In this document: piece by piece, positions 2,349-35,880 of the stretch
Layout of the letters: each line of letters opens with the position of its first letter
Numbering within the stretch: the stretch's first letter is position 1
Source: Oscillibacter sp.
GTDB lineage: Bacteria > Bacillota > Clostridia > Oscillospirales > Oscillospiraceae
NCBI GenBank assembly: GCA_022797935.1
Contig: JAAWLO010000015.1
Coordinates: 1 to 38,630 of the forward strand
Direction: 5' to 3'
DNA: 38,630 nt
The notes under the pieces: model-generated
Told to the model about the DNA's origin: nothing
Seen by the model: the letters and a program-made list of their open reading frames with translations, nothing else
Database searches by the model: none
Translations under genes and position numbers: made by a program

Positions 2349-3416
2349 TCAACAGGCCTCGAAATAAGCCCGGTTATGGAGCACAGCGGGGGAATCCGGC
2401 TTGAAGGCCGCCGCCAGTTCATTCATCTGCTTCGCCCTGGCCTGCTGGCCCATATGGCTGTAACAGACACAGAGCTGAATGCAGGGCAGATAGCCATAGC
2501 AATCCGGGCAGACAAAGCCTCCCCGGCGGTCATCCCGGGCACAGAGCAGCGCCGTCAGATACCAGTAGGCCGCCGGCTGGTACAGCTTCTGCCGGATGAA
2601 CCAGCGGCCGATTTCACAGCAAATCTCCGCGCGGGGGACGTCATAGAAAAAGGTGCGAAACAGGGCCTCCAGGGCCTCCCTGGGGCGGTCCAGACACTCC
2701 AGACAGCCCGCGCAGAGACAGCAGGCGTCAATGTTGTTCTCCACCCAGCCCCGATTCTCCGTCAGAAAGGCCTGAAAAACCTCCAAGGCCTCCTCGTACC
2801 GCTTGTGGTAGTACAGCTCCCGTCCATAATAGAACTGCTGCCGGGGATCCAGGGTCTTTCCCCGGGCCAGGAGCTTTTCGAAAATCCGAAGATTTCGGTC
2901 CGGGTCTCCGGGCCGGGTTTTCCGGTGGCTGACCGCAAACTCGCTGTAAACCACCGGTCCCACGGGGGTGATGGCCTCATGAACCGCCCCCTCCCAGCGG
3001 AGACCCGCCCGGTTCCGAATCAGCCGCTCCCGGTAATAGGAGAAGGTCACATTCCCGGCGTCGTCAAAACCGGTGTTGTACCGGGCCATGACCACGTTGG
3101 TTCCAGGGTCCAGGGTCCGCTTCAGCTCCAGGAAAACGGCGGCATCCGCCTCCTGGATGACATCGTCGGCATCCAGCCACAGACAGTAGTCTTTCTCCGC
3201 CAGGGAGAAGGCGTAATTCCGGGCGGCGGCAAAGTCGTCCTTCCAGACGTAGTCATAGACGCGGTCCGTAAAACGGGCGGCCACTTCCTTCGTCCGGTCG
3301 GCGGAACCGGTATCCACGACCACAATCTCGTCCACCAGCCCCGCCGCGCTCTCCAGGCAGCGGGCCAGTACGTCTTCCTCGTTTTTAACGATCATACATA
3401 GGCTTACGCTCACCAT
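2349..3416 (-). CDS. Family 2 glycosyltransferase with C-terminal TPR-like repeats
   Basis: A 355-residue cytoplasmic GT-A glycosyltransferase. The first 100 residues carry the family 2 signature: VSLCMIVKNEED, IVVVDTGSADRT, FAAARNYAF and the metal/nucleotide-sugar motif LWLDADD. From about residue 190 to the end, paired-helix segments of TPR type (FYYGRELYYHKRYEEALEVF and later repeats) probably hold the acceptor protein. The start has AAGGAG about 9 bases upstream. It lies directly downstream of, and on the same strand as, a broken BclA-like spore protein gene. In C. difficile a glycosyltransferase next to bclA glycosylates that protein, so I infer a role in glycosylating the spore-surface proteins here. 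The acceptor may now be the intact gene at 4285. Sugar donor unknown. Confidence 0.88.
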   Translation of the reverse strand: MVSVSLCMIVKNEEDVLARCLESAAGLVDEIVVVDTGSADRTKEVAARFTDRVYDYVWKDDFAAARNYAFSLAEKDYCLWLDADDVIQEADAAVFLELKRTLDPGTNVVMARYNTGFDDAGNVTFSYYRERLIRNRAGLRWEGAVHEAITPVGPVVYSEFAVSHRKTRPGDPDRNLRIFEKLLARGKTLDPRQQFYYGRELYYHKRYEEALEVFQAFLTENRGWVENNIDACCLCAGCLECLDRPREALEALFRTFFYDVPRAEICCEIGRWFIRQKLYQPAAYWYLTALLCARDDRRGGFVCPDCYGYLPCIQLCVCYSHMGQQARAKQMNELAAAFKPDSPAVLHNRAYFEAC

Positions 3417-3512: not shown

Positions 3513-4072
3513 TTACACTTCGCTCAGACGAATACTGGCCAGAGAAGCACCAGCTCCGCCATTGATCAATACAGCTACCGTCCAGTGTCTTGGGGAACCT
3601 CTGAAGGATGACGGTGGTTCCGGCGGTGATGTCCAGAAGAATCTCGGCAGGAAGGATCTGACTGTTTGGCAGAGGCACGGGAATAGCGGCCAGTACTACG
3701 AGCAGCACAGAGCCGGAGGTATTAGCGGCATACGCAGCGGCAACGTTGACGCCGATGATGGGGGCCGTGGCTCCCGGCATGGGGGACGCCGTCAGCGCAC
3801 TTTTCATCTTTGCTTTCCGAAACATTTGATTCTGCACAGCGGATTCCATCAGGCCCTGCACGCTGTTGTTGATGGCCAGCACTTCTTCCACGGGAACCTT
3901 CCAGGCCTGGTGATGCCGGAAAGGGTTCTCAGAACGTACGGAATCTTCTTGCCCCCGGCGTTGAGAATATGGCTGAGGGCCAGTTCCTCCATGGCAATGG
4001 AGGAGAGAATTTGATTTACCGCGCCGTCCCACGCAATGGCAGGATCAGCCGCGGGAAAAATGGGTATAGACA
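3513..4072 (-). pseudogene. BclA-like spore-surface protein, frameshifted and internally deleted
   Basis: Three consecutive reading frames together encode a recognisable BclA-like protein. Frame 1 (from the ATG at 4072, AAAAGGAG upstream) gives MSIPIFPAADPAIAW and the motif SSIAMEELALSHILNA, shared with the gene at 4285. Frame 2 (about 3900 to 3590) gives EEVLAINNSVQGLMESA, then AAYAANTSGSVLLVVLAA and VPLPNSQILP, sequences typical of the C-terminal jelly-roll of collagen-like exosporium proteins. Frame 3 ends with LINGGAGASLASIRLSEV and a TAA at 3513-3515. Both shifts are +1 in type. Compared with the usual jelly-roll, the middle strands are missing, and no collagen repeat is present. The combined lesions argue for a decaying gene rather than a single sequencing error. 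The glycosyltransferase at 2349-3416 follows on the same strand. Confidence 0.85.
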
Positions 4073-4167
4073 TAAGGGATAGAACTCCTTTTAGAGCGTT
4101 GCTCCCAGAAACAGCGGTTTTTCCCGTTCCCGGCGGGGCAGCCGTTCCGCTGGGCGGCCGCCTGTCA

Positions 4168-4195
4168 CAGCTTATGCGCTTTCCCCGCCGCCGGT
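4168..4195 (-). promoter_or_regulatory. Sigma-K-like promoter match for the BclA-like pseudogene
   Basis: On the minus strand, AC (4194-4195) is followed after 17 bases by CATAAGCTG (4168-4176). This fits the mother-cell sigma-K pattern AC-N16/17-CATANNNTR. The match is about 95 bases before the ATG at 4072. The motif is short, so only the spore-related context makes it credible. Confidence 0.4.
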
Positions 4196-4213: not shown

Positions 4214-4239
4214 ACAAACAGGGATTTTACCATAGACTA
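4214..4239 (+). promoter_or_regulatory. Sigma-K-like promoter match for the Cys-Pro repeat protein
   Basis: CATAGACTA (4231-4239) fits the sigma-K -10 pattern CATANNNTA exactly. AC lies 15 bases upstream (4214-4215), one base closer than usual. The distance to the ATG at 4285 is about 45 bases. Confidence 0.42.
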
Positions 4240-4284
4240 AACCAGCGGCCTTGGCCGTACAATCCAATCAAATGGAGTACTCCT

Positions 4285-5205
4285 ATGTCTATGCCATCCT
4301 TCCCGCCCCACGGGGCGGATATGACCCGCGAAGAGGCCCTGACCATGATTATTGCCTCTATCGCCATGGAGGAACTGGCCCTCAGCCACATTCTCAACGC
4401 CGAAGGGGAGAAACTTCAGTATTTTCTGAAGGCTCTGCCTCCCTGCGCCGAGGGACAGGAAATCCTGGAAGTCAACCGCAGTGTCAACAAACTTCTGGAT
4501 ACCGTAACCCAGACCCAGATTCTCCTCAAGGGCAAGCTGGCTCTGGCCCTTGAGGCCGGAGGCTGTCCCCCTGATCCGGGTCCTTGTCCGTCCGGTCCTC
4601 CGCCTTGTCCCCCTGACCTGGGTCCCTGCCCGTCCGGTCCCCCGCCTTGTCCCCCCGACCCGGGTCCCTGCCCGCCTTGCCCGCCGCCCTGTCCCCCCGA
4701 CCCGGGTCCTTGTCCGCCCAGTCCCCCGCCCTGCCCCCCTGACCCGGGCCCCTGCCCGCCTTGCCCGCCGCCCTGCCGGGAACGAAGCTCCATAGAACTC
4801 CTCAGCTCATGCAGCGGTCTTGTCTGGGGCAGCGGATGCGCCCTGCCCTGGAAACGATGCAGCAGCCAGGGCTGTGCCATCCGCTGGAATGACAGCGCCC
4901 CGTCCCTTATCCAGCTGGACGCCTCCAAAACCTACCTGCTTCGCTATACCATCAATACCTGCGGCTCCCCGCCCCGGGGAGAAGGCGGAAGCATCCTTCT
5001 CCGGCGCACGCCCCGGGATGCCTATCCCGACCTGCTGCCGCTGCACTTCCCGCCCCGGTGCCCCGAACGCCGCCCCGGAACCTTGCAATACAGCACGCTT
5101 CTCCTTCCGCAGGCCGGTCCGGCACAGGCGGCCCTCTCTCTGGTCCTCAGCTGCTCAGAGGGACTTTTCATAGAGCGGGCAGTGCTTCAGATGATCGAGC
5201 TGTAA
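4285..5205 (+). CDS. BclA-like spore-surface protein with Cys-Pro 14-residue repeats
   Basis: A 306-residue protein read from ATG 4285 (GGAG 8 bases upstream, and the same MSxPxFP start as its divergent sister). Residues 1-92 are a helical N-terminal domain with SIAMEELALSHILNAEGEK, the segment that precedes collagen-like regions in clostridial spore-surface proteins. Residues 94-163 are five copies of CPPDPGPCPxxPPP, giving more than ten cysteines instead of Gly-X-Y triplets. The remaining 140 residues resemble a C1q/TNF-type jelly-roll (YLLRYTINTCG, GTLQYSTLLLP, ERAVLQMIEL). No signal peptide is present, as expected for a protein made in the mother cell and assembled on the spore. I infer an exosporium or coat protein, cross-linked by disulfides. 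The function is not proven. Confidence 0.8.
   Translation: MSMPSFPPHGADMTREEALTMIIASIAMEELALSHILNAEGEKLQYFLKALPPCAEGQEILEVNRSVNKLLDTVTQTQILLKGKLALALEAGGCPPDPGPCPSGPPPCPPDLGPCPSGPPPCPPDPGPCPPCPPPCPPDPGPCPPSPPPCPPDPGPCPPCPPPCRERSSIELLSSCSGLVWGSGCALPWKRCSSQGCAIRWNDSAPSLIQLDASKTYLLRYTINTCGSPPRGEGGSILLRRTPRDAYPDLLPLHFPPRCPERRPGTLQYSTLLLPQAGPAQAALSLVLSCSEGLFIERAVLQMIEL
4564..4773 (+). repeat. Five 42-bp tandem repeats coding CPPDPGPCPxxPPP
   Basis: Five in-frame 42-base units encode 14-residue repeats. The variable pair is SG, SG, PC, PS, PC, and copy 2 has L for P at position 5. A sixth cysteine start (4774-4776) closes the array. The repeats differ mostly at third positions. Confidence 0.9.
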
Positions 5206-35796: not shown

Positions 35797-35880
35797 TCCT
35801 TCGTCTCCCGTCCTTCGTCTCCCGTCCTTCGTCTCCCGTCCTTCGTCTCCCGTCCTTCGCCTCCCGTCCCTCGTCCCCCC
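35797..35880 (+). repeat. 14-bp tandem repeat, six copies
   Basis: The unit TCCTTCGTCTCCCG is repeated at 35797, 35811, 35825 and 35839 exactly, then with one change (35853) and a degenerate sixth copy (35867). It is pyrimidine-only except for G at two positions of each unit. It lies in the gap between the convergent ispE and sfsA genes. Confidence 0.92.

Follow-up and report, generated by a model that had tools for sequence, protein, structure and literature searches.

A candidate spore-surface protein of Oscillibacter sp. with a proline- and cysteine-rich linker between two end domains

Spore hairs of the BclA type are regarded as collagen proteins. One gene in the window analysed here, the whole 38,630-nt stretch of Oscillibacter sp. 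DNA, raises the question of whether the collagen stretch of such a protein can be replaced by another kind of stalk. The first-pass annotation had described its product as a spore-surface-type protein in which a Cys-Pro 14-mer repeat takes the place of collagen.

The coding sequence is located at 4285..5205 on the forward strand (stop included), starts with ATG, contains no internal stops and has known orthologs. The encoded protein of 306 residues has a three-part architecture. An N-terminal domain (NTD, residues 1-89, 4285..4551) is followed by a Pro/Cys-rich linker (residues 90-166, 4552..4782) and a C-terminal domain (CTD) of 140 residues (4783..5202), all on the forward strand. Within the linker, five tandem repeats of 14 residues (42 bp) with the pattern CPPDPGPCPxxPPP span residues 94-163 (4564..4773), so that the repeat protein described earlier is borne out by an intact reading frame. 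The copies are, in order, CPPDPGPCPSGPPP, CPPDLGPCPSGPPP, CPPDPGPCPPCPPP, CPPDPGPCPPSPPP and CPPDPGPCPPCPPP, with Leu in place of Pro in one of them. The self-identity of the array at a lag of 14 is 0.89, a value that 20,000 composition shuffles, scored at every lag between 5 and 24, never reached (best 0.64), and TRF also detects periods of 42 and 84 bp in the repeat DNA. The linker harbours 13 of the 21 cysteines of the protein. Neither a signal peptide nor a membrane anchor was evident when the sequence was read by eye. The source genome is incomplete (158 contigs, 84% complete), and the number of 14-mer copies could reflect its assembly.

When the 14-mer copies were compared with each other, 46 silent and 18 residue-changing codon differences were counted (summed over ten non-independent pairs). 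For random single changes in the repeat codons, 28% silent changes are expected. Since the silent differences exceed this expectation, the 14-mers are likely under selection at the level of the protein sequence, and the array has most likely been translated and retained.

The NTD is common to collagen-like proteins. Its signature of about 90 residues with SIA(M/L)EE..LSHI(L/I/V)NAEGEK or close variants is present in the window protein, residues 25-43 of which are SIAMEELALSHILNAEGEK. Both collagen-like proteins of the genus that were scanned for BclA_C (L008 and L007) feature a window-type NTD, then Gly-X-Y and, at their end, BclA_C (PF18573, E 1e-44 and 1e-33, respectively), which supports the earlier claim that collagen-like proteins share this N-terminal segment. 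A protein of Lysinibacillus telephonicus (L036) carries the window-type NTD ahead of collagen repeats (PF01391) and is without BclA_C, and a protein from a Eubacteriaceae MAG (L035) carries it ahead of a mixed Gly/Cys triplet repeat. In the latter (L035:3001-3750), the array consists of Gly-Pro-Thr triplets in which every second Gly is Cys over part of its length, (GPTCPT)n, which is another Cys-bearing departure from collagen. PF01391 together with a Gly-X-Y region is present in L007, L008 and L036; the window protein has no Gly-X-Y run and no PF01391 match at E up to 1. At the same threshold, no Pfam or NCBIfam family matched the NTD or any other part of the 306-residue protein, and these libraries, which may lack a leader model, showed none for a Bacillus-type exosporium leader. 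Among 200 family genomes, 22 encode the NTD, which in some cases makes up a short protein or adjoins other sequence. In L081, L082, L084 and L092, the NTD or a relative occurs in short proteins (about 98 residues) and next to stretches rich in Ser/Thr, so that other linker types may exist.

For the CTD, a jelly-roll-like region had been proposed. This gains weak support from a structure model that predicts an all-beta CTD at low confidence (pLDDT 52) and suggests a jelly roll; a match at sequence level to BclA_C, Pfam or PDB was not obtained. The CTD alone had no match among PDB sequences, its profile gave chance-level scores against them (best E 0.79), and searches of the CTD family members against Pfam yielded nothing above chance. 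BclA_C (PF18573) had no Pfam match in the window protein or in the other CTD members. We rejected an assignment of the CTD to BclA_C on sequence, since the Gly-X-Y paralogs score at shuffle level against the CTD profile (at most 4.5 bits, shuffles reach 5.6 bits) and hhalign probabilities are 2-16%. Comparison of 6 CTD with 7 BclA_C sequences resulted in a probability of 2.3% (E 0.021, 63 columns), and comparison of 16 with 21 sequences in 15.8% and 7.3% (E 0.0016 and 0.0048, 48 and 49 columns), with E-values that apply to one comparison and a 21-row BclA_C set that is impure (L035 and L036, both without BclA_C, of which L036 was tested; the untested L073; and a cut-off L033 row). A distant link between the CTD and BclA_C may exist, because the aligned stretch is in matching register around GRYxxSYxIN. 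The protein thus contains two domains for which Pfam and NCBIfam gave no match: the NTD, which ranges from the family of Oscillibacter to Lysinibacillus, and the CTD.

The gene is patchily distributed in the genus. A whole-protein profile matched 20 of 86 genus genomes, with both end domains in 14 (own genome included) and the NTD part only in 6, while 66 of the 85 other genomes had no match to any part of the window protein. At family level, a 13-row CTD profile detected at least 9 of 400 genomes, again including the own genome, and the other eight belong to seven further genera. One further ortholog is located on an IMG/VR contig (L096); scans of viral contigs with other orthologs revealed no further relative. 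Among the up to 10 candidates scored per genome, a 6-row CTD profile found the own genome only in 394 genomes of the order and one further weak match (G814, E 1e-4, with a stop) in 398 genomes of the phylum. The same limit of 10 candidates applied to the family scan, and the family, order and phylum genomes were drawn from larger groups, so that absence from them is weak evidence. The resulting set comprises 23 orthologs, none of which has an internal stop.

Linkers were compared for 22 of these orthologs (G015 was dropped, as its sequence contains N; the linker of G863 was read by eye). Proline-rich linkers of 27 to 96 residues were found in 21, and the remaining one, G929, is of the Gly-X-Y type. 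Among these linkers, the regular 14-mer was seen only in the window protein. Other species have different short repeats or none, for example repeat units of twelve residues in G838 and G1019 (by eye) and a (PT)n linker devoid of cysteine in G1133 (L107). The earlier description of a Cys-Pro 14-mer as the rod consequently holds for the window protein, with its five repeats, but is not general.

This diversity bears on the view that the 14-mer array is the product of slippage in a low-complexity, fast-drifting linker without function, the end domains being all that matters. The range of linker lengths, the different or absent repeats in other species and the confinement of the regular 14-mer to the window protein are what such drift would produce. 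However, the differences between the copies are mainly silent, albeit counted over non-independent pairs, and proline richness is found in all but one of the linkers compared. We therefore regard this explanation as unlikely.

Cysteine behaves differently from proline. Four or more cysteines are present in 19 of the 21 proline-type linkers (20 tabulated, plus G863 counted by eye), a single one in G937, and the Gly-X-Y linker of G929 contains three. In a six-row alignment, the positions of the linker cysteines are mostly unconserved, with one invariant Cys at the linker end, and proline richness is kept. As judged from these sequences, proline is the constant of the linkers compared, and cysteine is common yet dispensable. 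A coat or exosporium matrix protein, in which the repeat cysteines weld the layer via disulfides, as has been proposed for cysteine-rich proteins of the CsxA type, and proline keeps them exposed, would account for the 13 linker cysteines of the window protein and for the many cysteine-rich relatives. Disulfide-linked Cys-rich arrays are also described for Bacillus and Clostridium exosporia in the part of the source available (PMC7333573). The cysteine-free (PT)n linker, the single cysteine of G937, the Gly-X-Y linker of G929 and the shifting cysteine positions argue against such a matrix protein, which we consider improbable. Because the G1133 linker is Cys-free and that of G937 has one Cys, disulfide cross-linking is unlikely to be a function common to all orthologs.

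The protein of G929, which belongs to another genus, bears on the question of collagen replacement. It features a window-type NTD, then GGTGPTGPTGATGATGATG flanked by cysteines, followed by a CTD that the CTD profile recognises. The whole protein scores 31.8 bits (E 7e-9) against this profile, compared to at most 5.6 bits among 1000 shuffles, and within the CTD fragment the highest-scoring stretch reaches 33.6 bits over profile positions 9-140. At the level of sequence homology, the same two end domains flank either a Gly-X-Y or a proline-type linker. Since G929 keeps both ends around Gly-X-Y, the notion of a replaced collagen stretch has a comparative basis, to which the Cys-free (Pro-Thr)n relative adds. 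The direction, with collagen first and the proline linker second, we infer from the collagen paralogs, so that this part of the earlier claim stands less firmly. A tree of the NTD (47 rows, 93 columns, G015 omitted due to N in its sequence) has 3 well-supported branches out of 44 inner ones, its bootstrap has not settled, and it is too short to show the direction of linker change. On this tree, the linker label changes twice, and one change suffices in 11% of 200 bootstrap trees. The linker swap may thus have arisen once or more than once.

The comparison suggests that the stalk of such spore-surface proteins is interchangeable. A more far-reaching form of this reading seems possible, albeit somewhat doubtful: in one family, a proline rod would have replaced the collagen helix, perhaps once, and its sequence would have varied freely thereafter (Pro/Cys 14-mer, 12-mers, (PT)n), with docking domain and head retained. 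The rod cysteines of most species could then tie adjacent stalks together in a nap that is sensitive to reductant. If this holds true, a triple helix would not be needed to display a head on the spore.

The surroundings of the gene also contain collagen-like genes. A broken BclA-like gene (3522..4073, reverse strand) is the divergent partner of the window gene. It has a window-type NTD and remains of BclA_C in two frames, and lacks the Gly-X-Y stretch as well as the central part of BclA_C. Misassembly is a possible cause of this breakage, because repeats break assemblies and the genome is incomplete. Broken bclA genes are, according to the accessible part of the source, described for Clostridioides difficile (PMC13188886). 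In 14 neighbourhoods examined (13 genomic ones and the short stretch of L096), a divergent Gly-X-Y gene adjoins 11 loci, in two of which it is cut short. No open Gly-X-Y gene adjoins G033, G845 and G929, with a stop-containing remnant in G033. The divergent Gly-X-Y reading frame was observed to be short in G826, G863 and G1019. Such neighbours are hence broken or short in several loci; the Pro/Cys gene is free of stops in 23 of 23 orthologs. A glycosyltransferase family 2 gene is located at 2349..3416 (reverse strand), and a relative with 68-72% identity was found in 9 of the 14 neighbourhoods, one with 40% identity over 160 residues in another, and none in four. The available portion of PMC7333573 reports a similar gene group for Clostridium sporogenes, in which collagen-like genes are found together with a glycosyltransferase and a cysteine-rich protein. 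Beside the L096 locus (L096:3873-6408), phage-like genes were recognised by eye, among them an amidase-like one and a tail-fibre-like protein with a collagen-like stretch; a prophage may be present there. Elsewhere in the window, a 14-bp tandem repeat with 5.9 copies and 94% matches is found at 35797-35879.

Evidence for a link to sporulation comes from the upstream region. The sequence CATAGACTA at 4231..4239 (forward strand) is a SigK/SigE-like -10 box, and the divergent partner has a -10-like box of its own, CATAAGCTG (4168..4176, reverse strand), found in the search for upstream boxes. The pattern CATANNNTR was detected upstream of 17 of 17 orthologs and then of six of six further ones, compared to 2.7% of base shuffles and 2.5-4.2% of random 130-nt windows, although the upstream regions stem from related genomes and are not independent samples. 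The spore link proposed earlier is therefore supported by a sporulation-type box in 23 of 23 orthologs. The same pattern lies within 150 nt of 21 of 25 Gly-X-Y reading frames. A -35-like AC was found 15-18 nt from the box in 12 of 17 orthologs (spacing of 15 in the window) and in none of the other five, so that the -35 match is imperfect. For B. subtilis, the consensus table, as far as the source was available, lists GCATANNNTA and KCATANANTN (PMC3416734). The window box fits either consensus except for the first base. We take GCATANNNTA to be the SigK entry and KCATANANTN the SigE entry of that table. Because the A required by KCATANANTN is absent in 8 of 17 orthologs (by eye), SigK is favoured over SigE across the orthologs; taken alone, the window box would fit SigE as well as SigK. 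The own genome encodes SpoIVA, a SigE above both of its family cut-offs and a SigK above the NF004471 and below the TIGR02846 cut-off.

Just past the -10 box, a short hairpin (4245..4258, forward strand; stem 4245-4249 / 4254-4258) is visible in the upstream alignment. This GC-rich hairpin (window 4240-4258) was observed in 14 aligned orthologs; of its five pairs, one is disrupted in a single row. A covarying RNA element of the 5'UTR was considered and rejected, as a compensatory change in one of the five pairs is insufficient. The hairpin might stabilise the 5' end or serve as an operator.

The protein could in principle be a vegetative cell-surface or secreted protein whose likeness to spore proteins is confined to the NTD. 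In favour of this, the support for expression during sporulation is sequence-based, and housekeeping genes such as recR, recognised by eye, lie a few kilobases from the window gene. Yet the mother-cell-type box is conserved and also precedes most of the Gly-X-Y reading frames, no secretion signal was found on reading the sequence, and the NTD is the same as in BclA_C proteins. We deem a vegetative role highly improbable.

Taken together, the protein is probably a spore-surface protein made by the mother cell late in sporulation, with the NTD docked in an outer layer and a proline-rich stalk holding the CTD head outward. Docking in the outer layer of the spore is also what is assumed for the collagen neighbours. 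In the proposed mechanism, the mother cell would transcribe the gene at a late stage of sporulation, and the NTD would probably dock the protein into the layer used by the BclA-like neighbours, because these carry the same NTD. The proline-rich segment would substitute for the collagen triple helix as a stiff, extended stalk of the polyproline type that keeps the CTD pointing outward, and might thus act as a filament. Stalk cysteines, where present, would probably cross-link to neighbouring stalks. The CTD would most likely be a jelly-roll head that mediates contacts from spore to spore or with the surroundings of the spore. According to the accessible text of PMC10470788, BxpB/ExsFA is the protein to which BclA docks by its N-terminus in Bacillus anthracis; for Clostridia, that of PMC7333573 reports that a homologue of BxpB/ExsFA is lacking.

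The searched open-licence full-text literature yielded no published description of an NTD, Pro/Cys rod and CTD in this layout, in agreement with the first-pass annotation, which knew of no such protein. The same docking domain and locus combined with a proline rod separate the role of the anchor from that of the rod. Since homologous ends enclose Gly-X-Y, Pro/Cys or Pro-Thr in natural variants, it becomes testable whether a triple helix or a mere stiff spacer is required.

Compared to known systems, the window protein shares the NTD, the type of upstream box and the locus with the collagen and BclA_C paralogs of its genus. F-Anchor of Bacillus thuringiensis, described in the available part of PMC11952670 as leader, collagen and DUF4183, is similarly a BclA-like protein with one of three modules exchanged. 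In F-Anchor, however, the head is exchanged and collagen is kept, whereas both head and rod of the window protein differ from BclA. The exosporium proteins CsxA and CdeC resemble it in being Cys-rich, possibly disulfide-capable and found in spore formers. As far as they are described in the accessible portion of PMC7333573, they differ from it, since its cysteines form part of a proline repeat that separates two domains, and two relatives have few or no cysteines there. With BclA-type exosporium proteins (collagen PF01391 and BclA_C PF18573), it has in common the arrangement of an anchor, a rod and a head at the C-terminus. Unlike these, it is without Gly-X-Y and its CTD without a BclA_C match, and its NTD differs in kind, by description, from the 38-residue N-terminal domain of BclA in the part of PMC10470788 available. 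Judged by sequence, the window protein would be a BclA-like display protein by its layout, and by its defining domains it stands outside the BclA family.
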